NCBI GenBank assembly: GCA_021810505.1
Contig: JAJZIR010000009.1
Span: 1-64,000 of the forward strand
Length of the DNA stretch: 64,000 bases
Direction of reading: 5' to 3'
Origin: a bacterium
Lineage (GTDB): Bacteria > Deinococcota > Deinococci > Deinococcales > Deinococcaceae
A program made the translations under genes and the position numbers. The first letter of the stretch is position 1, and every line of letters starts with the position of its first letter. The notes under the pieces were generated by a model, which was not told the DNA's origin, did not search any database, and saw nothing but the letters and a program-made list of their open reading frames with translations. Shown here piece after piece: positions 39,128 through 53,158 of the stretch.

Positions 39128-39183
39128 TGCTCTCCTCCGGGCCGCTGTCCGCGCAGCCAGATCCAGTGTAACAAGCCTGGGTC

Positions 39184-39657
39184 TCAGGGGCAGGGCGGCC
39201 TGAGCGTGTCCCAGATCCGGTCGGTCTGCGGCTCGGTCAGCGGCAGCCCGAGGGTCTTCAAGGCCAGAGCGATCTGGCCGACGTGATAGGCCTCGTGCCA
39301 GAGCAGGTGCTGCTGCAAGAATAGCGGGTGGCCGTAGATCGCTAAAGGTTGGCCGGACACCAAGCGGGAAGCCACCAGCGCGCGCAAGCGCCCCGCGCTC
39401 TCGGCTAGCTGGCCGAGCAGCACGTCCCTGCTAGGGGGTGGACCAGCCTCGCTCCAATCCGGGGATTTCTCGCTCGCATACGCCATCCAGAACAGCCGGG
39501 TGGCGTGGAGGTGGTCGACCTGCTCGGCCACCGAGGGGCTGGTGGGGTGGGCGCGGGCCTGGAGCTGCTCCGGGGAGAGCGCGGCGATCAGGTCGTGCAG
39601 GGCGGTGGCGTGGCGGTCCCAGGACTGCAGGGCGGTGGCGGCGAGGTCTTGGTCCAT
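39184..39657 (-). CDS. DinB-family protein
   Basis: A 157-residue four-helix protein. ALHDLIAALSPEQLQARAHP, SVAEQVDHLHATRLFW (first metal His) and LLWHEAYHVGQIALALKTLGL (HExxHxxQ, the remaining His ligands) are the DinB_2/YfiT metal site. Members are thiol-dependent S-transferases or of unknown role. ATG 39657 follows AGGAGG by 5 nt, and a TATAGG/TATCTC region lies just upstream as a possible promoter, so it is probably separate from the fluoride operon ending 38 nt upstream. Confidence 0.85.
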   Translation of the reverse strand: MDQDLAATALQSWDRHATALHDLIAALSPEQLQARAHPTSPSVAEQVDHLHATRLFWMAYASEKSPDWSEAGPPPSRDVLLGQLAESAGRLRALVASRLVSGQPLAIYGHPLFLQQHLLWHEAYHVGQIALALKTLGLPLTEPQTDRIWDTLRPPCP

Positions 39658-39695
39658 GTTTTCCTCCTATAGAGATAGGGTAACACGCACCTTCT

Positions 39696-41201
39696 TTAGC
39701 CCGTCCCCTGCACAGCAAAAATCCTCTCGTAGAGGTCCCTACCGAAGCTGGTGCTGAGCGGTTCACCGGGCCGGATCCGGTAGGAGCGCTGTCCCTCTGC
39801 ACCGCGCTCCGCTCGGAGAAACAGGACACCGGGGTCGTGTTCAGCCCAGAGCTGGCGGGCAAACTCGTAGAGGTGCGTCACGAAGAGCACCCGAACCCGG
39901 CGCTCTGAGAGGGCGTGCACCACTTGAAGGGCGATCAGAGAACCCTCGCGCTCGTTGGTCGCCGCGAAGGATTCGTTGCACAGCAGCATCGAGCCGGGAG
40001 CCAAGTGGTCGACGATCTGGCTGAAGCGGGCCACCTCCTCGTCGAACTTGCCGCGGCGCATCTCCGCATCCTCCTCCCTGCGGAAATGGCTGAACACCCC
40101 TTGGGCCAAGCTGGCGCTGAAGGAGGTGGCCGGTACCGGAAGACCGGCTTGCATCAGCAGTTGGGCCAGCCCGACGCTGCGCAGGAAGGTGGACTTCCCT
40201 CCCTGATTGGCGCCGGTGATGGTCACGAGCAGCGCGCCATCCCCTGCCAGCGCGTTGGGGACCGTCCCCGCCCGCAACCGGAGCAGCAGGTAGGCGTCGC
40301 GCAGATCGGTGAAGGAGAGGGCCCGCTCGGCCACCGGTCTGAGAAGCGGCGTGCAGCTGGGCGCACCGGACTCCTCCAGGAGGCGCTGCCAGCGGAGAGC
40401 GCCCAGGTAAAAAGCGCTCTCGTCGCGCAGAGCGGTAAAAAACGCGAGGACCTGATCCTGGTAATGGGACAAAAGCGTCGCCGAGCGCTCGATACCCCGG
40501 TCGCGCAGCTCGGAGAGAGCGTTGGCGCCGCCCTCATCGCGCTCGTCGATGGAAAAGCTGAGACCAGGGCTCTTGGCGAGCTTGCGCTGCAACCAGTTGC
40601 CCTGGGGTCTGGGGCGCTTGCGCGCCCGGTAGCGGCCGTACCCCCCGGTGCCGAGCTCAGCTGCCAGGAACAAGCCGGCTGGGAAAGCCAGCTCGGCGAG
40701 CAAAGCCTTGAGCTCGGCCAGGTAGCTTTCCGAAAACTCCTGCGTACAGGAAGCGAGGAAGCGGCACAGCCCCTCGGACTGGAGGCGGTCTAGGTAGCGG
40801 TCTGCCAGACCTCGGAGCTCCCCAAAAGCTCCCACGAAGATGTCCATGGCCTCCAGAGCGGCGTGCAAGCGCGCCGAGGGGTATTCGGTGAACACGGAGT
40901 GGAAAGTCTTGCGCTCGGCGGCGATCACCTGATTGGCCAGATCGTAGAGGGAGGTGATCAGCTCAGGGCAGCGCCGGGCGTCTTCCAGGACCGCTTGACG
41001 ATACGAGGCCGCCTGCAGGTCCGGTTCGGCCGCCGAGGACAACACCGCCTGGCGGAGGGAGGCGAGAATCTGAGCGTCACCTCCAGCCATCTCCTCCAAG
41101 AGCGCGGCGAGCTCTAGGTCGCGCAGCAGGTCCTCGGACCCCCAAGGGAGCTCGGCTTTCGGCAAGAGGTCACGGCTCGGAGACAGCAGTCTTGGCCTCA
41201 C
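39696..41201 (-). CDS. MutS-family ATPase B (last gene of fluoride operon)
   Basis: A 501-residue protein with only the core (lever/clamp-like helices) and the C-terminal ABC ATPase of MutS; the mismatch-recognition and connector domains are missing. Walker A is TITGANQGGKSTFLRSVG (near residue 329), then GVFSHFRREEDAEMRRGKFDEE, the signature-like segment, and SMLLCNESFAATNEREGSL as Walker B, with N-E where MutS has D-E. ILFVTHLYEFA-like H-loop follows (VLFVTHLYEFARQL). GTG 41201 overlaps ATPase A by four bases, so the two probably form a heterodimer. It differs from MutS1 and MutS2 (no Smr domain). Confidence 0.85.
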   Translation of the reverse strand: MRPRLLSPSRDLLPKAELPWGSEDLLRDLELAALLEEMAGGDAQILASLRQAVLSSAAEPDLQAASYRQAVLEDARRCPELITSLYDLANQVIAAERKTFHSVFTEYPSARLHAALEAMDIFVGAFGELRGLADRYLDRLQSEGLCRFLASCTQEFSESYLAELKALLAELAFPAGLFLAAELGTGGYGRYRARKRPRPQGNWLQRKLAKSPGLSFSIDERDEGGANALSELRDRGIERSATLLSHYQDQVLAFFTALRDESAFYLGALRWQRLLEESGAPSCTPLLRPVAERALSFTDLRDAYLLLRLRAGTVPNALAGDGALLVTITGANQGGKSTFLRSVGLAQLLMQAGLPVPATSFSASLAQGVFSHFRREEDAEMRRGKFDEEVARFSQIVDHLAPGSMLLCNESFAATNEREGSLIALQVVHALSERRVRVLFVTHLYEFARQLWAEHDPGVLFLRAERGAEGQRSYRIRPGEPLSTSFGRDLYERIFAVQGTG

Positions 41202-42739
41202 GGCGCCACCCGCTTGAGGATCCAGTCCCCCGTGATCCGGTGGCGCTCGGCGACCGAGAGGGCCAGGGAGCGCCCATCGGCCGGCCGGCGCAGGATCTTG
41301 AAGGTCCTCCGCAGCGGCTGCTCCGGATCCAGCGCGCTCACCAGGCTCACCGTCCAGAGGCCTAAGGAGGTCAGCTCGTCGACGAAGGTGACGTAAGCGC
41401 AGAGCGCTCCTATCCGGCCGATCTGCTCGAGAACTTTGGTTCCCAAAAAGAGGGCGTCCTCCAGGGCCGTCGAGCTGAAGACCTCGTTCAGCAGGATCAG
41501 GCTGCGCGGCGTCGCCGCGGAGAGGATGCGCGCCAGCCGCACCAGGTCGTCGTGGAGTTTTCCGGACAGGTCGGCAGTCTGCTCGCCGACTTCAAAGTGG
41601 GTGAAGACCCGGTCGGCCAGGAGCACCTCAGCTGAACTGCCTGGAACTGGACCGCCGAGGGCTGCCAGGTAGTGCAGCTGGCCGAGCAGCCGCAAGAAGG
41701 TGGTCTTCCCGCCCTGATTGGGTCCGGTGATCACCAGCACCCGCTCTCCGGGCTGCATCTGCAAGCTGTTGCGGACCACCGGCTGCCCCTCCGCCACCAG
41801 CTGCTGGGCTAGAGCGAGGTCGAAAGCCTCCTCGAAGGCCAAGTCGCTGGCTTCCGAGACCGCTGGGTAACAGAGCGGCAACTCGGCCCGCTGCAGCGGC
41901 GCCAGGTAGTTCAGGTACGCGGTAGCGAACAGCAGCTCGCGGCTTAAACGCTCCACAACCGGGTCGAGGTAAGCGCTATAGGTCTCCTGATAGCTGGCTA
42001 GCTCGGAGAAGACTTCGGGGTGGAGCTGGACGACCAGGTCCAGGATCTGCTCCTCGACGTGGTTCATCTGTAAGGCCCGGCTCCCCGCGGCCGCGGGGGG
42101 TGGCTCGGAGTCCGCTTCGAATTTCGCCAGAGTGGCCGAGACGGCCGCCGCCAGCTCCTCGCCGCCGGCACCCTTGCTGACCGTCACCCGCAAGCCGCGG
42201 ATACGCAGCTGGTAGCGGATGGAGTCCAGGTCCCCTCGGCGCAGGGCGCAATCCCCCAGCAGAGCCTGGTAGGCCGCCGAGGCGCGGTAAGCTCGCAGGT
42301 AACTGCGCAGGCCGAGCCAGGAAGCCGAGCTGAGCTGCAGCCCCTCTAGGCGAGCAGCCAAGGACTCCACCGCTTCCAGATACGAGGTAGTGGAGTTGAG
42401 AAACCAGATCCACCTCTGCGGGTCGCTGCGCAGGCGGGCTACCTGCTCCTGCCGCTGCCGCACCAACTCCATCGCAGCCAGGAAACCGTCCGCGGCTGCG
42501 CGCAGCTCAGGGCGCTCCAACTCCCTCAGGGCGCGTTGGCGATAGTCCACTGCGGCAATGCTGGTGAGTGGGGTGTAGAGCAGCTCGCGCAACCAAGGCT
42601 CAGGGTGCCCCGCGCAGATCCCGTCCACTATCTGGTCCAGGTTCAAGTCAGGAAAGCAGGAAGGCGGCGTGGCCGAGAGGGCTACCTGATTGGCAACCCA
42701 CAGCAGGCTCCCCGGCCAGGATGGGCTGGGAGAGCTCAT
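41198..42739 (-). CDS. MutS-family ATPase A
   Basis: A 513-residue paralogue of ATPase B. N-terminal half helical (REQ-rich, LARLEGLQLSSASWLGLRSY), C-terminal half ABC ATPase: VLVITGPNQGGKTTFLRLLG (Walker A, near residue 340), VFTHFEVGEQTADLSGKLHDD, SLILLNEVFSSTALEDALFL (Walker B, again N-E) and CAYVTFVDELTSL in place of the H-loop. ATG 42739 overlaps the metallophosphoesterase stop (ATGA). MutS-like genes are, from memory, among those originally listed downstream of the crcB (fluoride) RNA motif; here the riboswitch is about 9.6 kb upstream in the same operon. Substrate DNA structure unknown. Confidence 0.85.
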   Translation of the reverse strand: MSSPSPSWPGSLLWVANQVALSATPPSCFPDLNLDQIVDGICAGHPEPWLRELLYTPLTSIAAVDYRQRALRELERPELRAAADGFLAAMELVRQRQEQVARLRSDPQRWIWFLNSTTSYLEAVESLAARLEGLQLSSASWLGLRSYLRAYRASAAYQALLGDCALRRGDLDSIRYQLRIRGLRVTVSKGAGGEELAAAVSATLAKFEADSEPPPAAAGSRALQMNHVEEQILDLVVQLHPEVFSELASYQETYSAYLDPVVERLSRELLFATAYLNYLAPLQRAELPLCYPAVSEASDLAFEEAFDLALAQQLVAEGQPVVRNSLQMQPGERVLVITGPNQGGKTTFLRLLGQLHYLAALGGPVPGSSAEVLLADRVFTHFEVGEQTADLSGKLHDDLVRLARILSAATPRSLILLNEVFSSTALEDALFLGTKVLEQIGRIGALCAYVTFVDELTSLGLWTVSLVSALDPEQPLRRTFKILRRPADGRSLALSVAERHRITGDWILKRVAP

Positions 42740-43443
42740 GTGAGCCGAGCCGTCCGGTAAAGCCGGACCAACTCGTCCTGGACCGAGCCCGGTAACCCCC
42801 ACTCCCCCAGCGCGCGCAGGAGGGGTTGCCGGTCGTACTCAGCTCGCCGCAGAGAGAGCTCACCATCCTCCCAGGTGGCGTAGCAGGCCCGAGGGTCGCC
42901 GTCCAGCGGTTGACCTACCGAGCCAGGATTGACCACCCAAGCGTCTCCAGAGCGCCTGCGCAGGGGCAGGTGGGTATGGCCCAGCACCAGCAAGTCCGCT
43001 TCGGTAGCCGTCCGCTCGGCGAACAGGGTGGCTTCGGCATCCGGCTGCAGGCGGTAGTCGTATAAGGGATCCGCTTTGGAAGCGTGCACCATCTCGAGCT
43101 CGAGACCGGGCATCTGCCAAGTGAGTGCGAGAGGGAAAGACCGCAGGAAACGCAGCTGCGAGGGGTCCAACCGGGCCTGGCTGCGGCCCAGCAGCTCGGC
43201 GGCCAGCCACGCCTTGCTGGGGGCGGCCTGGGGATCGTCCCCCCAAACCAGAGCCTGGTCGTGATTGCCCCGGACGCAGCTGGCGGCCCGGCTCTGCAGC
43301 CAGGCCAGGACCTGCGCTGGCCTGGGACCGTAGTTGACCGCGTCCCCGGCGAAGAGCACCGCGTCGACCGGTCCAGCAGCACGCTCCACCGCCTCGAGCG
43401 CCCAGGGATTCCCGTGGGCGTCACTGATGATGAGCAGTCGCAT
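42736..43443 (-). CDS. YfcE/MJ0936-type metallophosphoesterase
   Basis: A 235-residue phosphoesterase. LIISDAHGNPWALEAVERA (DxH), VLFAGDAVNYGPRP (GDxxNYG), CVRGNHDQALVWG (GNHD) and VLGHTHLPLRRRSG plus VVNPGSVGQPLDGDP (GHTH and the terminal motif) give the two-metal site. Such enzymes cleave phosphodiesters or phosphomonoesters. ATG 43443 follows AGGAGG; the stop overlaps ATPase A. Its place between the coiled-coil protein and MutS-like pair suggests nucleotide or DNA-end processing in the fluoride operon, but that is inference. Confidence 0.9.
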   Translation of the reverse strand: MRLLIISDAHGNPWALEAVERAAGPVDAVLFAGDAVNYGPRPAQVLAWLQSRAASCVRGNHDQALVWGDDPQAAPSKAWLAAELLGRSQARLDPSQLRFLRSFPLALTWQMPGLELEMVHASKADPLYDYRLQPDAEATLFAERTATEADLLVLGHTHLPLRRRSGDAWVVNPGSVGQPLDGDPRACYATWEDGELSLRRAEYDRQPLLRALGEWGLPGSVQDELVRLYRTARLT

Positions 43444-43473
43444 GGTATACCTCCTGGGTGGGAGCAGGGTCCC

Positions 43474-44070
43474 TCAAGGCTGCGCTGGACCAGAGCCCCA
43501 CGCAGCCTGCAGCGCCAGCAACCGCTCCTCGATCCGGGTAAACAGAGGGGGTTCCGCTCCCAGAGTATCTGCCGCCGCGCGGTCTTCCGCCAGCGCGCGT
43601 TGGCGCAGCCGAGCCGCGCTGGCTAGCAGGCTGGTCGCCCTGCGGGCAGCCCAGCGACCTGAGTCAAGAGTCCACGGAACGAAGCGGCTGGCCTCCCAGG
43701 CCTCGCCCGCCAGGTCGGCCAACTCGCCGAGACCGGGCACGCCCAGCAGCTCAGCCTCCCTGCAGAAAGCCAGGGTGTCGTCGAGCAGGATTTCCCACCC
43801 AGAGACCCTTTGGTCGAGCTTGGAGAGCATCCGCAGCGCCGCGCTGGCCTCGGTGACAGCGGACTGAAGGTGGTATTCCAGGACCTGGCGGTCCCTCTGG
43901 CACTTGGTCAGCTGGTAGCGCAAGGTGGCATTTTCCTGGAACAGCGGCCCTGACTCCTGGACCAGGCGGTGGTTCTGTTCGGTCAGCCACTGCAGCTGAC
44001 GCTCCAGCTCAGCCAGGCGCTCCGGATCCGGAGCGCCCTCGGTACCCCGCCGGGGCCTACGCAGCATCAC
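43474..44070 (-). CDS. Coiled-coil protein of unknown function (fluoride operon)
   Basis: A 198-residue protein. Residues about 15-85 form a strong heptad pattern (ERLAELERQLQWLTEQNHRL, then ATLRYQLTKCQRDRQVLEYH), the rest is helical and alanine-rich with no motif I know. GTG 44070 overlaps the MFS stop; ATG 44067 is equally possible. It is 30 nt upstream of the metallophosphoesterase gene. It might be a scaffold for the membrane complex or the ATPases; nothing decides this. Confidence 0.7.
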   Translation of the reverse strand: MMLRRPRRGTEGAPDPERLAELERQLQWLTEQNHRLVQESGPLFQENATLRYQLTKCQRDRQVLEYHLQSAVTEASAALRMLSKLDQRVSGWEILLDDTLAFCREAELLGVPGLGELADLAGEAWEASRFVPWTLDSGRWAARRATSLLASAARLRQRALAEDRAAADTLGAEPPLFTRIEERLLALQAAWGSGPAQP

Positions 44071-45272
44071 TGACCCCCCGAGGCTGCCGCCCTGGGCGGA
44101 AGCGAGCGCAGGAAGCGGACCAGCAGGTAGATGGAGGCCAGCTCGGCGGCCAAGGAGAACGCCACCACCCCACCCACCCCCAGGGCGTCCAGGGCCCCCA
44201 GCATGACGCTCCCGATCAGCCAGGCGGCTCCGTACACCGAGTCGAACAGGCCGTAGGCCGCGCCGCGCTGCCCTTCGGGGATCAGGTTGGCCAGGCCGGA
44301 GCGCATCAGGCTCTCCTGCAGACCGAGAGCTGCCCCCCAGAGCACTGCCGCCAAGGCCAGCAGCCAGGCAGAGCCCGCCAGGAAGAAGAGCGGGGTCGCC
44401 AGCAGGCAGAGCGGCGGCAGGAAAGCGAGCGTCCTCAGGCCGAAGCGGTCGTAGGCCAAGCCAGCCAGATAGGCAGCCAGAGCGTCTGCACCCATGGCGA
44501 CAGCGAAGATCAGGGGGATGCCGTAGACCGGAACTAGGTGATCCACGCCCATGCGGTAGGCGACTAGCTGGAAGTGGGCGAAGCCGAGCACCACCACGGC
44601 CGAGAAGGCCAGGTAGGCGTAGAAGGCCGGCGGATACCCCCTGCGGAGCACTACCCTGGGTTTGGGCGGCGGCGCCGGCTGGCCGCGAGCCCGCACTAGG
44701 AAGGCCAGGGCCAGCAGAGCCGAGCCCAACAGGCCGGCGAAGCCGACGCGCAGGCCCCCCAGGGAAATCAACAGGGCGACCAGCACAGGGCCGATCAAGG
44801 CCCCCAGCTGGTCCAGGAGCTCGTGCAGGCCAAAGGCGCGGCCCTGGCCCACCTCTTCCCCGGCCCTGGCCAGGACTGCGTCTCTGGGCGGATTGCGGAC
44901 TCCCTTGCCCAACCTCTCGGCGAAGATGAGAGCGCTGGCGGTCCCGGCCCCGGAAGCCAGCGCCAGGGCCGGGACCGCCAGCAGGTTGATCGTGTAGCCC
45001 ACGGCCATCGCCAACCAGTGGCGCCCGCTGCGGTCGGCGTAGCGGCCCGAGAACCAGCGGACGCCGTAGCTGATGAATTCGCCGATCCCAGCGACCGCCC
45101 CTACCAGCAGCGGCCCGGCCCCCAGGGAGGCCAGGAAGGGGCCGGTGATGCTCCGCCCCCCCTCGTAGGTCATGTCGGCGAAGAGGCTGACCAGGCCGAT
45201 CCCGATGATGAACCGGGTGGCTACCCGCTTGCGCTGCTCCACAGCGCTTTTTTCCCGTGGATCAATGACCAT
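44067..45272 (-). CDS. MFS transporter of the fluoride operon
   Basis: A 401-residue, 12-TM major facilitator. N-terminal RFIIGIGLVSLFADMTYEGG, SITGPFLASLGAGPLLVGAV, and SGRYADRSGRHWLAMAVGYT (motif A, GxxxDRxGR) in loop 2-3; second-half loop YLAGLAYDRFGLRTLAFLPP. No substrate can be read from the sequence. ATG 45272 overlaps the antiporter-subunit stop by 11 nt, so it is translationally coupled to a membrane complex, which is unusual for MFS genes. Under fluoride control it could export fluoride, a fluorinated metabolite, or a metal-fluoride complex; this is speculation. Confidence 0.9.
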   Translation of the reverse strand: MVIDPREKSAVEQRKRVATRFIIGIGLVSLFADMTYEGGRSITGPFLASLGAGPLLVGAVAGIGEFISYGVRWFSGRYADRSGRHWLAMAVGYTINLLAVPALALASGAGTASALIFAERLGKGVRNPPRDAVLARAGEEVGQGRAFGLHELLDQLGALIGPVLVALLISLGGLRVGFAGLLGSALLALAFLVRARGQPAPPPKPRVVLRRGYPPAFYAYLAFSAVVVLGFAHFQLVAYRMGVDHLVPVYGIPLIFAVAMGADALAAYLAGLAYDRFGLRTLAFLPPLCLLATPLFFLAGSAWLLALAAVLWGAALGLQESLMRSGLANLIPEGQRGAAYGLFDSVYGAAWLIGSVMLGALDALGVGGVVAFSLAAELASIYLLVRFLRSLPPRAAASGGQ

Positions 45273-47148
45273 AGACCACCACCGCCCAGGCTAGGCCGAC
45301 CAGCAGGGCGGCCAGGATGTAGAGGGTGTAGAGGGTGACGTAACCGGCTTGAATCCGGGCAGCCAGGCGGATCAACAGGGTCGGGATGGACCCCACCGCC
45401 CGGTAGAGCTGATCCAGCCAGTCCCGAATCTCGGCCAGGTAGTGCCCCTGATCCAGACCCCAGAGCGGCCGGTAGAGGGCAGCGAAGACCTGGCGCAGCG
45501 AATTGGTGTAGCCGGTCCCGCTCACCTGGATCCGGCCGTGCTGCTCGGCTGAGGCGGCGACCCAGACCGGCACGATTCGCCTCCGCCTCCTAGCCAGCAA
45601 CCCCCAGAAGAGCAAAGTAACCGCCGGCAGGAAGACCCACAGAGCGGCCGGTGAGATCGCTGCGACGCTGGCGTAGGCCGGATTGACCTGCCAGTTGGCC
45701 CGGGCGACCAGCCTGGCCAACCGGACACCGTCCCCCAGCGCGCGGTCCAATACGGGAAAGACCGACCAGGGCAGCGCCGCAGCTGCCACCGAGAGCGCTA
45801 TCCCCAGGGCCGCCGACCAACGGGTCAACCCCGGCTCGGGGGCAGCCCGGGCAGCAGCCTCGCTGCGCGGGGCGCCGAGGAAACCGGTACCCAGAGCCTT
45901 GGTCGCCGCTACCAGGGCCGCGGCGCTGAGCAGCGCGAAGGCCGCGGCGCTGAGCAGCCAGACCAAGCGCACCGTGACACCCGGCAGGTGATAGCTCTGG
46001 AACAGCAGCTGGAACAGCAGCCACTCCCCCACGAAGCCCGAGAAGGGCGGCAGGGCGCCCAGACTGAGCAGGCCGGCGAAAGCGCCGGCAGTCGACCAGG
46101 GCAGGCGCCTAGCTAGGCCACCCATCCAGTCCAGTGAGCGTATCCCGGTGGCCTGCTCGGCGGCTCCGGCAGCCTGCAGCGCCAGGCCTTTATCCAGGAG
46201 GTGGTGCAGGCTCAGGTAGAGGGCCAGCAGCAGGCCGAGGTCCCCCAAGCGCAGCTCTCCGGCAGCCTGAAAGGTCAGGCCGGCACCCAGGGCCATCCAC
46301 ACGATCCCCCCGTTCTCTACCGTCGAGAAGGCCAACAGCCGCCGGAGCTCCGGCTCGGCCAGGCTCCGGAAGGCGGCGTACGTCGCTGTCAGCGCTCCCA
46401 GGACCAGAAGCACCGTTCCCCCGGCCACCCCCACTTTCAAGAAGCTGGTACAGAAGCGGAGCAGACCGTACACTGCGGCGATCCACATCGCCCCCGAATA
46501 GAGAACCGTCCCGCTGGACCTGGTAGCCTGGTAGGCATCCGAGACCCAGCCGGTCAGGGGCAGAGCGCCCAGCTTGGCCCCGAAACCGATCAGGACCAGA
46601 GCCAAGACTAGGGCGTTGGCCTGAGGGGCGGCCTCCAACGCCGCGAAGTTGGCGTGGCCCAACAGCAAGAAGGCGGCGAAGAGGGCGCCCACCCCCACCT
46701 CTAAAAACCCCGCCATCTTGGCGGCGCTCTGGCCATCCCGGTGCCCGGTCATCAGGTAAGCGGCCAGGCCCATCAGTTCCCAGCCGGCCAGGAAAGTCTC
46801 CGCTGTCCCGGCAGCGATGGTGAGCAGGACCCCGGCCAACAGCAGCGGCAGGCTTAGGCGTTCCAGCCGGCTGACCCCTCGCTCCGAAGCGGCAAAGAGC
46901 AGGGCAGGAACGCTGAGGGCGGCCATGACCAGGCTGACCCTGGATAGGGCGTCCAGGCGCAAGGCCAATTGAAAGGGCCCCAGGCCCCAGAGCGGCAGGC
47001 TCGCAGGGACCACCAGGCGGGCTAGCTCTCCGAACAGCAACAGCAGAGCGGCGATCGCCAGAGCCTCAGCCCAACGGCGCGCCGGCCAGAGCGCTCCGGC
47101 CAGAGTGCCAGCTAGCAGCAGGGCTAAGGCCATGAGCAGGAGAGTCAC
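45262..47148 (-). CDS. Hydrogenase-4 subunit B-like antiporter-type membrane subunit
   Basis: A 628-residue protein of the NuoL/M/N-HyfB family with about 14-16 TM segments. The TM5 glutamate is present in LAGWELMGLAAYLMTGH. The TM7-8 region reads GAKLGALPLTGWVSDAYQAT and RSSGTVLYSG, where the family has GxKxxxxPxHxWLPxAHxxAPSPVSAxxSG; the lysine is kept but the histidine and APSPVSA are lost. A C-terminal membrane stretch extends the protein. GTG 47148 overlaps the small-subunit stop (GTGA). Inferred: membrane proton/ion channel half that is partly modified. Confidence 0.88.
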   Translation of the reverse strand: MTLLLMALALLLAGTLAGALWPARRWAEALAIAALLLLFGELARLVVPASLPLWGLGPFQLALRLDALSRVSLVMAALSVPALLFAASERGVSRLERLSLPLLLAGVLLTIAAGTAETFLAGWELMGLAAYLMTGHRDGQSAAKMAGFLEVGVGALFAAFLLLGHANFAALEAAPQANALVLALVLIGFGAKLGALPLTGWVSDAYQATRSSGTVLYSGAMWIAAVYGLLRFCTSFLKVGVAGGTVLLVLGALTATYAAFRSLAEPELRRLLAFSTVENGGIVWMALGAGLTFQAAGELRLGDLGLLLALYLSLHHLLDKGLALQAAGAAEQATGIRSLDWMGGLARRLPWSTAGAFAGLLSLGALPPFSGFVGEWLLFQLLFQSYHLPGVTVRLVWLLSAAAFALLSAAALVAATKALGTGFLGAPRSEAAARAAPEPGLTRWSAALGIALSVAAAALPWSVFPVLDRALGDGVRLARLVARANWQVNPAYASVAAISPAALWVFLPAVTLLFWGLLARRRRRIVPVWVAASAEQHGRIQVSGTGYTNSLRQVFAALYRPLWGLDQGHYLAEIRDWLDQLYRAVGSIPTLLIRLAARIQAGYVTLYTLYILAALLVGLAWAVVVYGH

Positions 47149-47873
47149 GTGTCTACCACCTCCTTCCCCAACCAGAGCAGCAAGGACCGGAGCAGGGCCA
47201 GTGGGCTCGGCGGTGAGCCCGGAACGTAGAGATCGACCGGCAGGTACGCGTCCACCCCGCGCTCCGACCACAGGCCTCCGGAGACGGCGTCGGTGCCGTA
47301 GGCGACCACCCACTTGGGGGCCGGCATGGCTGCGTACACCTCAAGGAGTCCGGGCGACAGGGCCGCGGTCGGAGATCCGGTCACCAGCAGGACGTCGGCG
47401 TGCCTGGGGCTGGGCGTGAAGAAGATCCCCAGGCGGTGGAGGTCGTAGGCGGGGCTGACCAGCTGTTGCAGCTCCGACTCCTCTCCCCCATCGCTGCCGG
47501 CGTCAAAGTGCAGGAGGTGCAGGGAGCCGCGGAAGCGGGCCAGGGGGCCAGGGGCCGGTCCCAACAGCTCCGGGGCAATGAGCCCTGCTCGGGCCGTGGA
47601 GGCTACGTCGCAACGGCGCAGCATCGCGATCTCCTCTGGGCGGTGCCGGGCGCAGATCCCGCAGCCGATACAGCGGCCGTAGTCGATCCGCAGTTCCCCT
47701 TGGCTGGAAGCAGAGATCGCCGCAGTGGGGCAGCTAGCCGCCAGCTCAGCGCTGAACTCTGCTGCTCCCAGGGACGGCCAGGACATGCCCAGCTCCGCCG
47801 GCTCCGGCGGCCGCTTAGGGTAGCGGGTGGTCTGGCGACCAGCTCGTAGGCCTTGCCAAGTCCAAGACGGCAT
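47145..47873 (-). CDS. Ferredoxin-fused HyfI/NuoB-like small subunit lacking the proximal cluster
   Basis: A 242-residue fusion. Residues 40-85 are half of a bacterial ferredoxin: C48 in ASCPTAAIS and C68, C71, C74 in RCIGCGICARH. These are exactly the four ligands of one cluster of a 2[4Fe-4S] ferredoxin; the partner cluster's ligands are absent (R78 stands at the fourth position). Residues 110-242 match NuoB/HyfI, but the four proximal-cluster cysteines are D128 and E131 (GSDGGEE for GSCNGCE), D195 (YGTDAVSGG) and S220 (YVPGSPP). So this subunit carries one cluster only and cannot pass electrons by the normal route. ATG 47873 follows GAGGGGGAG. Confidence 0.88.
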   Translation of the reverse strand: MPSWTWQGLRAGRQTTRYPKRPPEPAELGMSWPSLGAAEFSAELAASCPTAAISASSQGELRIDYGRCIGCGICARHRPEEIAMLRRCDVASTARAGLIAPELLGPAPGPLARFRGSLHLLHFDAGSDGGEESELQQLVSPAYDLHRLGIFFTPSPRHADVLLVTGSPTAALSPGLLEVYAAMPAPKWVVAYGTDAVSGGLWSERGVDAYLPVDLYVPGSPPSPLALLRSLLLWLGKEVVDT

Positions 47874-47886
47874 CTCCCCCTCCTCT

Positions 47887-49236
47887 CTAGCGGTCCCAGG
47901 CGGCTTGTAGCGGGTGGAAACTCACCTGATTGATGATGTAGTCCATCTGACTGGAAGACATGCGCATCCCCTGCGCGAAGGCTGGCCAGAGCAGTTGCGA
48001 GGCCGGCCGCAGCGCCCAGTGGGGTTGGCCAGAAGCGTCGCAGCGCAGGTAGGCCAGAGTCTCCCCCCTGGGGCCCTCGGCGTAGCCCAGGGCCTCACTC
48101 CCTGGAGGTAACGGTCCGGGGGGATTGTGCACCGGGCCACCGACCCGCCGGAGCGCCGAGACGGCGCGCTGGATCAAGTCGAAGCTGATCCGCAGTTCCT
48201 CCGCGCGCACCCGGCAGCGCGCCAGCGCGTCCCCCTCCTCGTGGATCGGGACTCCTAGACCGAGCTCGGGGTAAGCCCCGTAGCCGGGATCTACCCGCAG
48301 GTCCTGACCCAGGCCGCTGGCCCGGGCGCTGGGACCTACTAGGCAAAAATCCAGAGCGCCTTGTCTGGATACGGCCCCGCTCCGCTCCAAGCGGTCGACA
48401 AAGAGCTCGGTCGCCAGCAAGCGGTCGAGGTAGGCCGCTGCCCGGCGCTGCAGAGCGTCCAGCTCGGCCAGCCAGCTGCCAGAGGGCAGCGGTGGTTCAG
48501 CCACCAACCCCCCCACCGCCACCAAGCCGCGCAGGAAGCGCGAAGCGCTCAGCTGTTCGGCTAGGCGCTGCACCCCCTCCTTCAAGGTGGCGGCCTGGGC
48601 CTCACCGACCCGCAGGGTAGCTGTCGCTGCCTGGCGGGCGAAGTAGTCGAGGTGGTTATAGAGGCGCTCCAGTTCGGCGAAGACCACCCGCCAGAGCTCC
48701 GCTCGGGGCGGGGGCACCGCCCCGGTCGCTGCTTCGGCTGCCCTAGCCACCGCCAGGCTATCGGCCACTGAGCTCAGGGCCGCGAGGCGTTCGGCGACCC
48801 TGGGCAGCCAGGCTAGGGGAATCTCTCCCAAGCGGCGCTCCACCCCCCGGCGCTTCAGGAAGGGCCTCAACTCCACGGCGGCGATCCGCTCCCCTCCGCT
48901 GACGATTCGGTGGAAGATGGCCTCCGACTGAGTCTCCCTGACCGGGCCGTAAGGGAAGGCGAACAGCTGCGGGTTGGAGTCCAGCAGGTCCCGCCCCTGG
49001 CCCTCCTGCGCCGAGAAGGCCAGGCCGTACCAGCGCTCAGCTTCCAGCTCGGCCCAGTACAGCGCCGGCCAGCTCTCCCCCAAGCGCGGCAGGGGCGGCT
49101 CGGCGCGGAGGACCAGATAACCGCCTTCCCGGTAAAGGACCTGCCGCACCTCCCCACCCAGGACGGCTAGCTGGGCAAATCTGGCGCGGCCGCGCCAGGC
49201 CGCGAGGTCTCCCGCCATGGGGATCAGCGTGCTCAC
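47887..49236 (-). CDS. HyfG/NuoD-like large subunit without NiFe ligands
   Basis: A 449-residue relative of group 4 NiFe-hydrogenase large subunits and NuoD. Recognisable blocks: the N-terminal HyfG-type domain (1-140), VELRPFLKRRGVERRLGEIP, ELWRVVFAELERLYNHLDYF (family E-x-E-R-L-x-N-H), GAYPELGLGVPIHEEGDALA with VRAEELRISFDLIQRAV, and a C-terminal PHWALRPASQ. The RxCGxC and DPCxxC nickel-iron motifs are replaced (ALSSVADSLAVARAAE, NQVSFHPLQAAWDR); the whole protein has three isolated cysteines. It resembles the Ehr (energy-converting-hydrogenase-related) class. GTG 49236 overlaps the F-like subunit stop. Confidence 0.88.
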   Translation of the reverse strand: MSTLIPMAGDLAAWRGRARFAQLAVLGGEVRQVLYREGGYLVLRAEPPLPRLGESWPALYWAELEAERWYGLAFSAQEGQGRDLLDSNPQLFAFPYGPVRETQSEAIFHRIVSGGERIAAVELRPFLKRRGVERRLGEIPLAWLPRVAERLAALSSVADSLAVARAAEAATGAVPPPRAELWRVVFAELERLYNHLDYFARQAATATLRVGEAQAATLKEGVQRLAEQLSASRFLRGLVAVGGLVAEPPLPSGSWLAELDALQRRAAAYLDRLLATELFVDRLERSGAVSRQGALDFCLVGPSARASGLGQDLRVDPGYGAYPELGLGVPIHEEGDALARCRVRAEELRISFDLIQRAVSALRRVGGPVHNPPGPLPPGSEALGYAEGPRGETLAYLRCDASGQPHWALRPASQLLWPAFAQGMRMSSSQMDYIINQVSFHPLQAAWDR

Positions 49237-50684
49237 TGGGGCACCGCCAGCAGCTGCCTGGCCAGCAGGTGCAGGAGTTGCTGGATCGGACCGGGAGTGA
49301 CGACCGAGAACAACAGGATCAGGGCGGCTCCGACCCCCAAGGGGACCAGGGCCAGCCAGGACGCGTCCTGGCTGGCCTCCCCGGCTGCTCGGCCCGGTCC
49401 GAAGATGACCGAGCTCCAACGCCCGACGAACAGCGCGAAGACCAGGACCAACAGGGCAATAAATAGCAGACCGAGCCAAGTACCCTGACCCAGGGCCGCC
49501 TGCGCGATCCCCAACTCGCTCGGAAACAGGTTGAGCGGCGGAGCTCCGGTGACCGCCCAGCCAGCCAGCAGGAGCACGAAGCCGGTGAACGGCATCCGCC
49601 CCAGCAGCCCACCGAGTTCCGAGAGGCGTTGGCCAAAGCGCTGCACTGCATTGCCGGCAGCGAAGAACAAGCTGGACTTGACCAGAGTGTGGTTGAGCAT
49701 CTGCAAGCCCAGCAGGTAGGGAGCGGACAGACCCAAGGCGAAGGCGATAATCCCCATGTGTTCGACGCTGGAGTAGGCCAGCAGGCGCTTGAGCCGGCTC
49801 TGGCTACCCAGGTTCAGGGCGGCGATCAGCAAGGAGAGCAAGCCAAAAAAGATAAGCAGTCCGTCCGGAAAGCTCGGCCCCAGGGTCACCCTGGCGATCT
49901 GCCAGAAGCGGGCCACTCCCAGGAAAGCGGTGTTGAGCAGGCAGCCCGAGAGCATCGCGCTGACCGGGGAAGGAGCCACCGCGTGGGCGTCGGGGAGCCA
50001 GGTGTGCATCGGCACCAAGCCGACCTTGGTGCCGTAGCCGATCACCGCCAGCACCAGTGCCAACGCCACCGGAGCCGGCGAGAAAGCCCTGGCGTGCGCG
50101 AGCAGGCTGGGCCAGTCGGGCGCGAAGACCTGGCCCAGGACTGGTACGGCGGCGTAGTAGAGCAAGATGGTCGCAGCGAAGGCCAGGGAGACCCCTACGG
50201 TCACGACGATCACATACTTCCAGGCTCCCTCCAAAGCCTCCGGGCTGCGGTCGAAAGCGACCAACAGCGAGGACGTGAGAGTAGTGAGCTCGATCAGCAC
50301 CCAGTAGAGGGCCAGATTGGTGAACAGCGGGGCTGCCAGCATGCTGGCAGAAAAAAGGGCCCACAGGGCGTAGTACTGGCGCAGGGGGCGCAGGGAGAGG
50401 CGGTGGGAGCCCGAGAAATAGCCGGCGCTATGCCAAGAGGACTGGAAGACCACGAAGGCGACCGTCCACAGGACCAAGGTGCCCAGGCCGTCCAAGCTGA
50501 CTGCCTGCCCCCACAAATTCAGCTGACCGCTGGCTAGGGCCGCGGCGCCGAGCAGCCCGGCGAGGACTAAGACCAAGGCGCCGACCGCGATGGCGCCCAC
50601 CCGGAGGGCCGACGCGTCTAGCCAACCGGCCAGCGCAGCCAGGGCCAGAGGGGCAGCGACCAGCGAGATCACCAGGGCGCTCAT
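49233..50684 (-). CDS. Hydrogenase-4 subunit F-like antiporter subunit
   Basis: A 483-residue, about 14-TM protein of the HyfF/NuoN/M family. Unlike the B-like subunit it keeps the full channel motif: YWVLIELTTLTSSLLVAF (TM5 Glu), YGTKVGLVPMHTWLPDAHAV and APSPVSAMLSG (TM7 Lys, TM8 His). It should therefore be competent for proton or cation movement. ATG 50684 overlaps the E-like stop (ATGA). Third gene of the fluoride operon. Confidence 0.92.
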   Translation of the reverse strand: MSALVISLVAAPLALAALAGWLDASALRVGAIAVGALVLVLAGLLGAAALASGQLNLWGQAVSLDGLGTLVLWTVAFVVFQSSWHSAGYFSGSHRLSLRPLRQYYALWALFSASMLAAPLFTNLALYWVLIELTTLTSSLLVAFDRSPEALEGAWKYVIVVTVGVSLAFAATILLYYAAVPVLGQVFAPDWPSLLAHARAFSPAPVALALVLAVIGYGTKVGLVPMHTWLPDAHAVAPSPVSAMLSGCLLNTAFLGVARFWQIARVTLGPSFPDGLLIFFGLLSLLIAALNLGSQSRLKRLLAYSSVEHMGIIAFALGLSAPYLLGLQMLNHTLVKSSLFFAAGNAVQRFGQRLSELGGLLGRMPFTGFVLLLAGWAVTGAPPLNLFPSELGIAQAALGQGTWLGLLFIALLVLVFALFVGRWSSVIFGPGRAAGEASQDASWLALVPLGVGAALILLFSVVTPGPIQQLLHLLARQLLAVPQ

Positions 50685-51331
50685 CCGCGCAGCTCCCGGG
50701 ACCAAGCCGCTGCGTCCCCCATGCGCTCGACCATCACCCGGGCCAGCAGGCCCACCACCACCACCAAGATCAGCAGATCGAAGAGGACGACCACCTCGTT
50801 GAACAGGGGAAAGCCGGGGATCAAACCTACCGCCAGGAGGAAAAGGCCGTTCTCGATCACCAAGAGGCCCAAGACCTGAGGAAAGGCCTCGGGTCGGCTA
50901 GAGGTGAGAAAAAAGCCGAGCAGGACCAGGGCTAAGCCAGTCGCGAAGGAAGACAGGACCAAAGGGCTCCCGGAAGGAAGCAGCCGAGCGGCGGCCAGGA
51001 TCGCGAACCCGATCAGCAGGGCACCGATCAGGACGGAAGAGGGGTTGCCGAGGATCAGCCGCTCCTCGCGGCGGGACGGCAAGGCCTCGGCGAAGCGCCG
51101 CAGCATCCAGGGAACCGCCAGGGCGCGCACCAGCAGGGTCACAGCCGCGGCCAGATAGAGCTCGGGGTGGTGCTCGAGCAGCGCCGCCGCCGCCGTGAAT
51201 AGGGCCAGGACCAGAGACTGGACCTGATAGGCGAGCAGCTGGGAGATGAAGAAGCGGGTCGCCAGGATCATCAGCGTGCTGGCCAGGAAGATGACCGCCC
51301 CCAACTCACCGACGTCGACGAGGGCGTTCAC
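50681..51331 (-). CDS. Hydrogenase-4 subunit E-like membrane protein
   Basis: A 216-residue protein with six to seven TM segments. The end VVVLFDLLILVVVVGLLARV and the EFPQxxGxLxxENG-like stretch (FPQVLGLLVIENGLFLLAVG) match HyfE, which combines a NuoK-like core with extra helices. The conserved glutamate in VIENG is the NuoK-type channel residue. GTG 51331 overlaps the C-like stop (GTGA). It would sit between the B/F antiporter subunits and the C-like anchor. Confidence 0.9.
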   Translation of the reverse strand: MNALVDVGELGAVIFLASTLMILATRFFISQLLAYQVQSLVLALFTAAAALLEHHPELYLAAAVTLLVRALAVPWMLRRFAEALPSRREERLILGNPSSVLIGALLIGFAILAAARLLPSGSPLVLSSFATGLALVLLGFFLTSSRPEAFPQVLGLLVIENGLFLLAVGLIPGFPLFNEVVVLFDLLILVVVVGLLARVMVERMGDAAAWSRELRG

Positions 51332-52284
51332 GCTTTCCCGCCGATCTGGGAGGCCAGGGTGGCCAGGACTGCGATCAGGAAGGTCAAGGAGAGGTATTCG
51401 GCGTAGCGGTAGTAGCGCAGCCTGGCCAAGCTAGTCTCCAGGACGGCGACCAGGGCGCCCAAGACCAGCATCTTGAGCAGCAAGCTGCCTTCTGCCAGCA
51501 GGAAAGCCAGGGCGCTAAAGTGGCTGGCCATCCCCCAAGGCAGGGCGAAGACATCGAGCAGGATCACCATCAAGAGGAACTGCTTGCTGTGGCCGGACCA
51601 AGAGAGCAGAGTCAGGTCGGGACCGCCGTACTCGACCAATCTGGCCTCCTCGATCATGCTGGCTTCGGTGGCGCCGCCGTGGTTCCCGATCGGGAGGCGA
51701 CCGCTATCCACCAGGAAAATCAGGAAAAAGGCCAGCAGGGCCAGCAGGTGGGTGGGGTTCAGGTAGCTCGCCCAGCTCTGCCGGTAAGCCGCGCCGGCCA
51801 CATAGGGGTAGGTGGCGTGCGCGAAGAGCGCCACCGAAACCAGCACCAGGACCAGGGCCGGTTCGACCAAAACGGTGAGCAAACCCCCGCGCCAGGCACC
51901 GATACCCCCATAACTCCCCCCAGGCTCTAGTCCGCCCAGGGTGATGCAGGTGCTGGAAAGGGCGAAGAGCATACCCCCGGCCAGCATGTCTCCCATCCAG
52001 GCCAGCGGCAGGGGAAAGGTAGTCAGGACCGGGATCAGGGTGGCGATCGCCGCCATGGTGGCCAGGCTCAGCGGAGGCGCGACCGCGTAGATCCAGCCAG
52101 CCGCGCCAGGCCGGAGCAACTCCTTGCCCCACCATTTGTACAGGTCACGGTAGGGCTGCCAGACCGACACGCCCTGCCTCCCCTCGATCCGGGCGACCAG
52201 CCAGGCGATCCAGCCCGAGATGAACGGCGAGATCGCCAGCATGGAGACGACTTGCAGGACCTGCCAGAGCACCGCCATCAGCAC
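51328..52284 (-). CDS. Hydrogenase-4 subunit C-like (NuoH-type) membrane anchor
   Basis: A 318-residue, eight-TM protein related to HyfC/HycD/NuoH. WLVARIEGRQGVSVWQPYRDLYKWWGK is the NuoH cytoplasmic loop 1 (RxxGRxG, QPxxDxxK), cut here into pieces of GRQGVSVWQPYRDLYKWWGK. EASMIEEARLVEYGGPDLTL is the acidic loop that couples to the peripheral arm. First gene after the fluoride riboswitch; GTG 52284 (ATG 52278 possible) lies 50 nt after the terminator T-tract. It should anchor the G/I subunits to the membrane. Confidence 0.93.
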   Translation of the reverse strand: MLMAVLWQVLQVVSMLAISPFISGWIAWLVARIEGRQGVSVWQPYRDLYKWWGKELLRPGAAGWIYAVAPPLSLATMAAIATLIPVLTTFPLPLAWMGDMLAGGMLFALSSTCITLGGLEPGGSYGGIGAWRGGLLTVLVEPALVLVLVSVALFAHATYPYVAGAAYRQSWASYLNPTHLLALLAFFLIFLVDSGRLPIGNHGGATEASMIEEARLVEYGGPDLTLLSWSGHSKQFLLMVILLDVFALPWGMASHFSALAFLLAEGSLLLKMLVLGALVAVLETSLARLRYYRYAEYLSLTFLIAVLATLASQIGGKA

Positions 52285-52333
52285 CGCACCCCAAGCCCTT
52301 TCGCCAGCACGGATGCCCCCTTTCCTGTAGGAA

Positions 52334-52370
52334 CAAAAAGATGGCTCCTACCCGTTCCGGTAGGAGCCAT
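52334..52370 (-). terminator. Intrinsic terminator = expression platform of the fluoride riboswitch
   Basis: On the minus strand, a 12-bp stem ATGGCTCCTACC/GGTAGGAGCCAT (52359-52370 with 52341-52352, 6-nt loop) is followed by C-TTTTT (52334-52340). The 5' arm is the last part of the aptamer, so folding of the aptamer and of the terminator exclude each other. Fluoride binding should therefore allow read-through into the hyfC-like gene. Confidence 0.9.
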
Positions 52371-52405
52371 TAGCCCGAAGGGCGGTTGTGGCGAGCTCCA
52401 TCGCC
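52359..52405 (-). promoter_or_regulatory. Fluoride riboswitch (crcB motif) aptamer
   Basis: Read on the minus strand, the 47-nt segment consists of GGCGATGGAGCTCGCC, then ACAACCGCCCTTCGGGC, then TAATGGCTCCTACC. This matches the crcB/fluoride aptamer: P2 GGCG/CGCC, P3 GCCC-TT-CGGGC, P1/pseudoknot GGAGC with GCTCC, and the invariant GATG and TAATG(G/A)C-CCTAC segments. It aligns nearly base for base with the Thermotoga petrophila fluoride aptamer as I remember it. Transcription from the TATACT at 52414-52419 would begin within a base or two of the aptamer 5' end. It controls the whole downstream operon (52284 to 39696). Confidence 0.93.
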
Positions 52406-52413
52406 TAGGGAGC

Positions 52414-52419
52414 AGTATA
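52414..52419 (-). promoter_or_regulatory. -10 element TATACT of the fluoride operon
   Basis: TATACT ends 8 nt before the aptamer, so the RNA should start at about 52406. A TTGACC -35 candidate (52439-52444, minus strand) lies 19 nt upstream and overlaps the stop codon of the second DUF190 gene. Confidence 0.7.
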
Positions 52420-52440
52420 CCTGCGCCTAGCCCGCCCCGG

Positions 52441-52797
52441 TCAAGAGGTCCGTGCCTGGTAGAGCTCCACCTGAGCTCGCTCTAGCGTCACCATGCGGTC
52501 GGGCAAGTCCTCAGTCCAGGAGGAGCGCAAGAAGGCCTCCAGCCGGTCCCTGCGGTCGACCATCTCGATGACCACCGGCTGGAACTGCGGCCGAAACTCC
52601 AGGACGTCCAAAATGGTCTCGAAGCCGTGGCGACCAAAACCCGAAGTTCCGCGGAGCACGGTGGCGCCGGCCAGCCCAGCCTTCCTGGCCTCCTCTAGGA
52701 GATAGTCGGCCAGGGGGCGGCGGCCGAAGCGGTCACCGTCCAGGAGGTAGACGCGCAGCATGCTGCGCTCGCCCTCGAGGTCGAGCCCGCCGTTCAC
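52441..52797 (-). CDS. DUF190 protein (copy 2)
   Basis: A 118-residue PII-like ferredoxin-fold protein of the DUF190 family: MLRVYLLDGDRFGRRPLADY, LLEEARKAGLAGATVLRGTS, GFGRHGFETILDVL and PVVIEMVDRRDRLEAFL. DUF190 genes are known neighbours of crcB fluoride channel genes, where they may sense nucleotides; no crcB is seen here. GTG 52797 overlaps copy 1 by four bases; internal ATG at the MLRVYLL segment is an alternative start. The fluoride-operon promoter starts at its stop codon. Confidence 0.88.
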   Translation of the reverse strand: MNGGLDLEGERSMLRVYLLDGDRFGRRPLADYLLEEARKAGLAGATVLRGTSGFGRHGFETILDVLEFRPQFQPVVIEMVDRRDRLEAFLRSSWTEDLPDRMVTLERAQVELYQARTS

Positions 52798-53135
52798 TTC
52801 TTCCCCCGGTCGAGCACGAAGATGACCTCTCGGGTGATCAGCGCCCCGCCGGAGAGCAGCTCGGCCGCCGTGGAGAGGAAGGTCTCGATCCGCTGGGCGC
52901 TATCGACGAATTCGACGACCACCGGGAGGTCGCTGCTCATCCGGAACAGGCTGCTCTTGTGGATGACCGATTTGGCTCCAAAGCCGGCTGTGCCCTGCAG
53001 CACCGTACCCCCTCTGAGGCCGCTATCTCTGGCCTTCCTGAGCAGTAGGTCCGAAACCGGTTCTCCGTGCAGGCGATCGGAGTGGCCCAGGAAGATCCTG
53101 AGCAACTCCTCCTGCCGCCAGACCAGATCTCGCAT
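52794..53135 (-). CDS. DUF190 protein (copy 1)
   Basis: A 113-residue paralogue of the next gene with the family pattern ELLRIFLGHSDRLHGEPVSD, LLLRKARDSGLRGGTVLQGT, AGFGAKSVIHKSSLFRMSSD and LPVVVEFVDSAQRIETFLST. It resembles PII signalling proteins in fold. It starts 23 nt after the etfA stop, so it probably belongs to the acyl-CoA dehydrogenase/ETF transcript. Having two paralogues suggests a heteromer. Confidence 0.88.
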   Translation of the reverse strand: MRDLVWRQEELLRIFLGHSDRLHGEPVSDLLLRKARDSGLRGGTVLQGTAGFGAKSVIHKSSLFRMSSDLPVVVEFVDSAQRIETFLSTAAELLSGGALITREVIFVLDRGKK

Positions 53136-53158
53136 CCCTCACCCCCATCCCCCCGCGC

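Follow-up and report, generated by a model that had tools for sequence, protein, structure and literature searches.

A probably horizontally acquired fluoride-riboswitch operon of a Deinococcaceae bacterium encodes a hydrogenase-like complex that may act as a redox-free ion transporter

The stretch of DNA analysed here (the window) comprises 64,000 nucleotides (nt), positions 1 to 64,000 of the forward strand of contig JAJZIR010000009.1 (GenBank assembly GCA_021810505.1; Deinococcaceae). On its minus strand it carries a fluoride riboswitch followed by eleven intact genes, which encode a hydrogenase-4/complex-I-type membrane complex (subunits in the order C-E-F-G-I-B), an MFS transporter, a coiled-coil protein, a phosphoesterase and two MutS-like ATPases. 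We consider it reasonably probable that this is a horizontally acquired fluoride-resistance operon whose main product would be a redox-free, Mrp-like ion or proton transporter supporting fluoride efflux. The evidence for this interpretation is the recurrence of the complex beside fluoride riboswitches, the loss of its metal ligands together with the conservation of its channel residues, and its regular company with known fluoride exporters.

Recurrence Beside Fluoride Riboswitches

Relatives of subunit C were sought in 84,980 species genomes, and at least 571 were found; the locus counts given below refer to the best 80 of these, chosen by subunit C protein similarity alone. The 80 loci are not independent, some being close relatives or a near-identical locus present in two metagenome-assembled genomes (MAGs; L117, L122). 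A covariance model derived from 17 riboswitches, which gave 177 matches in 92 sources, located a fluoride riboswitch in 71 of the 80 loci, and directly before subunit C in 61 of the 78 loci having enough upstream sequence. Rfam added two loci (L104, before subunit C; L047, antisense). A conserved linkage of this kind had been named as the check to be made by the first-pass annotation, which was prepared from the letters of the window alone; its reading of the run as a fluoride-response operon and not a hydrogenase is supported, and both the complex and the MutS pair are linked to fluoride riboswitches in relatives.

Plasmids searched with subunit G (tblastn) yielded loci in Burkholderia, Caballeronia, Alicyclobacillus and Mycobacterium, each with 3 to 6 fluoride riboswitches within about 20 kb. 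Orthologues of the MutS pair were present in the Caballeronia and Alicyclobacillus loci (E <1e-115), and an orthologue of the MFS protein in that of Mycobacterium branderi (E 2.5e-61). The carriers span Proteobacteria, Actinomycetota, Chloroflexota, Bacillota, Planctomycetota, Eremiobacterota and others, with Paraburkholderia phenazinium and Acidiphilium iwatense among the cultured ones; many are acidophilic or were recovered at acid mine sites, in which the entry of hydrogen fluoride (HF) should be worst.

Related complexes served as controls. Among 250 Burkholderiaceae genomes, the subunit C scores fell into two groups, five at E <1e-163 and intermediate relatives near 1e-70; a riboswitch lay upstream in all five of the fluoride type versus none of the 25 intermediate relatives that were fetched. 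Among 151 Mycobacteriaceae genomes it was found in 2/2 fluoride-type loci versus 0/6 intermediate relatives and 0/8 complex I genes, so that the related complexes outside the fluoride clade had none (0/31 over both families). A FastTree phylogeny of 156 subunit C sequences placed all 91 of the fluoride type in one group with no intruder, and on a subset analysed with IQ-TREE the separating branch received an SH-aLRT/UFBoot support of 100/100. Judged by these trees, the fluoride-type complexes are monophyletic, and control of the complex by fluoride is strongly supported by what the sequences indicate.

Unusual arrangements were also recorded. In an Alicyclobacillus plasmid (L039:8555-10257), subunit G was the only part of the complex found, directly behind its own fluoride riboswitch and in the neighbourhood of CrcB, DUF190 and a MutB-MutA pair. 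Two copies of the whole or part of the complex occur within one locus in L092, L097, L106, L107, L120 and L126; those of L092 (Acidithiobacillus) stand in tandem, each with its own riboswitch.

Metal Sites and Channel Residues

No CxxC pair was found at either nickel-iron (NiFe) site of subunit G, in the window or in any fluoride-clade relative; these pairs are present in the formate hydrogenlyase (FHL) of Azospirillum used as a control (L042). The His and Tyr of the complex I quinone site, which we take to have this role in NuoD, are missing as well: subunit G reads GPVR and AERL versus GPQHPSTHG and TDYLH in the NuoD of the host. In subunit I of the window, the segments of the proximal [4Fe-4S] cluster read DAGSDGGE, GTDAVSG and VPGSPP, all four cysteines being replaced, and half of the N-terminal ferredoxin motif is retained (CIGCGIC). 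The description of the complex as metal-free in the first-pass annotation was therefore upheld for the NiFe and proximal-cluster sites, with this half-motif remaining.

All four proximal-cluster cysteines were lost in 18 of the 67 members that could be scored, the window included. In the subunit C tree the window groups with a cluster-keeping proteobacterial clade (support 85.8/91), apart from the actinobacterial loss group, and the cluster ligands were therefore lost at least twice. The Glu, Lys and His residues of the antiporter-type subunits (E137, K225, H337, K341 and E395 in F; E127, K195, H319, K323 and E378 in B; numbering of the aligned stretch), which presumably line the ion channels, are 91–100% conserved overall and complete in the 18 cluster-less members. 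That these residues are kept while the cluster ligands are lost is the main reason for proposing ion movement without redox chemistry.

Fluoride Exporters and Other Partner Genes

The window itself holds neither CrcB nor CLC-F, as had been remarked at first, but the host encodes CrcB on contig 26 and also has two CLC genes. One of the latter (L045) was considered as a CLC-F candidate and set aside, its GREGP motif looking ordinary. The suggestion that the complex stands in for CrcB or CLC-F, and should hence anticorrelate with them, had to be abandoned: complex and CrcB/CLC-type genes usually coexist. Of 50 genomes with the complex, 35 have CrcB (draft MAGs make up many of the remaining 15), and in 12 loci CrcB comes immediately after subunit B, on the same strand. 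A CLC-type gene is present in 10 loci and is preceded by a riboswitch in 9 (L071:11566-12933 and nine similar genes; GREGT motif, possibly CLC-F). The complex thus accompanies the fluoride exporters rather than replacing them, and the occurrence of CrcB in the 35 genomes, the 12 loci and the host marks it as a partner of the complex.

The genes lying directly 3' of the riboswitches were most often subunit C (61), MutB (18), DUF190 (12) and CrcB (7), followed by dynamin-like, histidine phosphatase, NUDIX, pyrophosphatase and enolase genes; 44 were unassigned. The dynamin-like, NUDIX and histidine phosphatase genes recur beside the riboswitches, apparently as additional components of fluoride-resistance islands. 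A review ranks Na+/H+ antiporters second in frequency among the classes of genes linked to these riboswitches (PMC11139923), in agreement with a function in pH and ion balance.

Proposed Function and Alternatives

A rise of cytoplasmic fluoride would cause the riboswitch to block the overlapping terminator, and one long mRNA would be made in the host strain. Its main product would be a member of the hydrogenase-4/complex-I family in which redox chemistry has been lost and the ion channels have been kept, and which most likely works as an Mrp-type cation/proton antiporter or a proton-moving complex; the ion moved may be H+, Na+, K+ or F-. Transport is inferred from the channel residues of F and B; by counteracting the acidification and the fall in proton-motive force that HF entry and fluoride efflux bring about, the complex would support CrcB or CLC-F. 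The MFS protein probably has an accessory role in moving ions or solutes. On slighter indications, enzymes, ribosomes or nucleotides trapped by fluoride would be released or repaired by the MutS-core pair and the phosphoesterase. Only tentatively do we extend this scheme to the whole clade, as a dedicated fluoride-stress ion transporter (perhaps of protons linked to F- or HF) that has shed its redox function and spread between phyla with a MutS-core pair freeing fluoride-trapped enzymes or ribosomes.

Several observations weigh against a redox-free transporter under fluoride control. With the covariance model described above, 17 of the 78 loci have no riboswitch directly before subunit C, although in some of them one precedes a gene lying farther upstream in that run. 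Moreover, 49 of the 67 scorable members retain proximal-cluster cysteines (48 all four; L116 three of four), and some redox role may persist in them. These retained ligands, along with the ferredoxin-type cysteines kept by most members in subunit I and the enolase genes often found nearby, would suit a redox-driven ion pump (for example from ferredoxin to a quinone or other acceptor) that restores the proton-motive force once glycolysis has been halted by fluoride at enolase. We regard such a pump as unlikely: NiFe ligands are found nowhere, the quinone-site residues are missing, no electron-input subunit was recognised among the recurring neighbours, and the four cluster ligands have been lost repeatedly, in the window too, while the operon stays.

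Somewhat less likely again is that the complex itself exports fluoride or HF, its antiporter subunits moving F- or coupling F- exit to cations. Its place at the head of a riboswitch-controlled operon in most loci would agree with this, as would the 15 genomes without a CrcB match, but the many drafts among the latter, the usual presence of CrcB or CLC-type genes beside the complex (frequently within a single operon) and the match of the conserved channel residues to those of H+/cation-conducting homologues speak against it.

It is very improbable that the metal-free complex of the window is a decaying remnant retained by chance. The loss of metal and cluster ligands and the long branch of the window's subunit C could be so read, but every reading frame is intact and tightly packed, the channel residues are conserved, and whole clades have lost all four ligands yet retain the rest.

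A true FHL shifting cells to mixed-acid fermentation under fluoride, the name given to riboswitch-linked genes in PMC2864571 and PMC11139923 and one to which the closest solved structure (E. coli FHL) lends itself, is effectively refuted, because the NiFe ligands are absent from every fluoride-type member and neither formate dehydrogenase nor hydrogenase maturation genes are among the recurring neighbours; the "formate hydrogenlyase" of the riboswitch literature is therefore very probably not one.

Riboswitch and Operon Layout

The coordinates of the features are collated in Table 1. The covariance-model match to RF01734 in the window (54.5 bits versus a gathering score of 34; E 2.4e-12) is the sole one in the 2.31-Mb host genome (97.9% complete). 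The 3' end of the aptamer doubles as the 5' arm of the terminator stem; since the two share this arm, fluoride binding and termination should be mutually exclusive, and the riboswitch should act as an ON switch. The candidate promoter was missed by a consensus promoter scan. A candidate 10-codon frame with a good ribosome-binding site lies 3' of the terminator (52276-52310, minus strand; GTG CTG GCG AAA GGG CTT GGG GTG CGG TGC TGA); its end, TGATG, overlaps the possible alternative ATG of subunit C, and translational coupling may result.

The ten junctions between the eleven genes comprise seven overlaps of 4 nt, one overlap of 11 nt, and gaps of 13 and 30 nt. The single run behind a riboswitch, its mostly 4-nt overlaps and its largest gap of 30 nt had been described correctly in the first-pass annotation, and Pfam recognised complex-I/hydrogenase-type subunits, the MFS protein, the metallophosphoesterase and two proteins with MutS domain V; the DUF190 pair (52441-53135), which belongs to the same inserted block, had been overlooked. 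Subunit E gave no Pfam match, no PDB relative of the MFS protein was found, and no relative of the coiled-coil protein was detected among the other fluoride loci. A PADLOC search of the accessory genes for defence systems returned nothing convincing.

Table 1. Features of the operon and of the inserted block (positions in the window).
Feature	Position	Strand	Basis and remarks
Inserted block between etfA and HD-GYP gene	39128..53158	.	comparison with G001
MutA, MutS-core ATPase	39696..41201	-	PF00488; Walker A GANQGGKS; model fold = MutS core
MutB, MutS-core ATPase	41198..42739	-	PF00488; Walker A GPNQGGKT
YfcE-type metallophosphoesterase	42736..43443	-	PF12850; homologues in fluoride loci L070 and L094
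Coiled-coil protein	43474..44070	-	
MFS transporter	44067..45272	-	PF07690; relatives in other fluoride loci
Subunit B, HyfB/NuoL-like antiporter subunit	45262..47148	-	PF00361; NCBIfam hydrogenase 4 subunit B; channel residues conserved
Subunit I, NuoB/HycG-like	47145..47873	-	PF01058; all four proximal [4Fe-4S] cysteines lost
Subunit G, hydrogenase large/NuoD-like	47887..49236	-	PF00346; no NiFe ligands, no quinone-site His/Tyr
Subunit F, HyfF/NuoM-like antiporter subunit	49233..50684	-	PF00361; channel residues conserved
Subunit E, HyfE-like	50681..51331	-	assigned via orthologues and gene order
Subunit C, HycD/NuoH-like	51328..52284	-	PF00146; closest solved structure FHL HycD (7z0s_D); ATG possibly at 52278
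Intrinsic terminator	52341..52370	-	12-bp stem, then CUUUUU (U5); 5' arm within aptamer
Fluoride riboswitch aptamer RF01734	52354..52414	-	Rfam, 54.5 bits
Candidate promoter TTGACC-19 nt-TATACT	52414..52444	-	immediately 5' of riboswitch; weak evidence, 19-nt spacer
DUF190 protein 1	52441..52797	-	PF02641; 5' of riboswitch; equivalent position in other fluoride loci
DUF190 protein 2	52794..53135	-	PF02641

The MutS-like Pair

In the fluoride loci, 28 of 30 MutB genes adjoin MutA and 19 have their own riboswitch. MutA and MutB (501 and 513 aa) have intact Walker A motifs, and Pfam finds MutS_V alone in them; they are too short for the mismatch-binding domain I. Along its whole length, the predicted structure of MutA (mean pLDDT 82.5) matches the core structures of MutS and MutS2. 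Neither protein attains the cut-off of any named family; among NCBIfam models, KamC, a protein reactivase ATPase, gives the best E-value for MutA (72.6 bits, far below the 300-bit equivalog cut-off). A remodelling role is preferred to mismatch repair for the pair, with low confidence, and the repair of nucleic-acid damage by it is only a guess. At the Walker B motif, Asn-Glu is present in MutA (NESF) and MutB (NExF) versus Asp-Glu in MutS, and is invariant in the aligned orthologues.

Genomic Insertion

In a genome of the same family (G001), etfA (C20:24651-25592) and an HD-GYP gene (C20:23370-24440) lie about 210 nt apart, and the same neighbours are found on one contig in G003. In the window these two genes flank 14 kb, made up of the DUF190 pair, the riboswitch, the eleven genes and a DinB-superfamily gene. 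A fluoride-type subunit C was found in 1 of 111 genomes of the host phylum, that of the host itself. This rarity, together with the empty site in G001, is best explained by horizontal arrival of the operon. No flanking repeats, base-composition mark (GC 0.677 versus 0.666 and 0.68) or sign of a mobile element was seen at the insertion.

A search of same-phylum relatives with subunit G only returned complex I and other Ehr complexes and no orthologues. Other genomes of the phylum (L033-L036) have metal-free Ehr complexes in the order B-C-E-F-G-I and without a riboswitch; these also lack the proximal-cluster cysteines, a further independent loss. The DinB-superfamily gene (39184-39657, minus strand) begins 38 nt past MutA within the inserted block, has a strong ribosome-binding site and may be on the same transcript as the operon.

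Comparison with Known Systems

The window complex shares with the metal-free Ehr complexes, whose function is stated to be unknown (PMC10284858, PMC6349859), a complex-I/group-4-hydrogenase subunit set without NiFe ligands, but its type is set apart by a distinct monophyletic clade, the riboswitches, the order C-E-F-G-I-B, partial loss of the FeS ligands and fluoride-resistance neighbours. The core subunit types are common to E. coli FHL and hydrogenase 4 (best PDB match 7z0s), from which it differs in having no NiFe ligands and no formate dehydrogenase or maturation genes found alongside. Mrp cation/proton antiporters likewise have subunits of the antiporter type in which channel Glu, Lys and His are conserved, and NCBIfam cation/H+ antiporter models match subunit B; the window complex, a putative antiporter, keeps NuoH-, NuoD- and NuoB-like subunits (C, G, I) that are missing from Mrp. 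The FRM operon of Enterobacter cloacae (ppaC, uspA, eno, gpmA, crcB, orf5249) is also a fluoride-riboswitch operon on a horizontally acquired island, in which neither a hydrogenase-like complex nor a MutS pair was reported (PMC5533749); enolase, pyrophosphatase, Usp and CrcB genes stand beside the complex in other loci too. With KamC and with MutS/MutS2, MutA and MutB share a MutS-type ATPase domain and, as modelled, the MutS core fold; they differ in staying below the cut-offs of the named families, in their shortness and in being nearly always paired as MutB-MutA.

In 2010, crcB-motif RNAs were described as associated with mutS genes and with genes for formate hydrogen lyase (PMC2864571), and a 2024 review took formate hydrogen lyase as a formate-oxidising enzyme and read the link as a shift to formate-oxidising fermentation (PMC11139923). 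No paper joining fluoride riboswitches to metal-free Ehr complexes was found in the literature searched, which largely excluded subscription journals, so that an earlier mention is possible. Against the 2010 record and the reading of 2024, the riboswitch-linked genes form one clade that is very probably no hydrogenase, and CrcB appears as its partner, not its alternative. A likely function can thereby be offered for part of the Ehr complexes, with a natural case of a complex-I-like machine that apparently works without redox centres, and a poorly understood family of complexes gains a testable role in the survival of fluoride.

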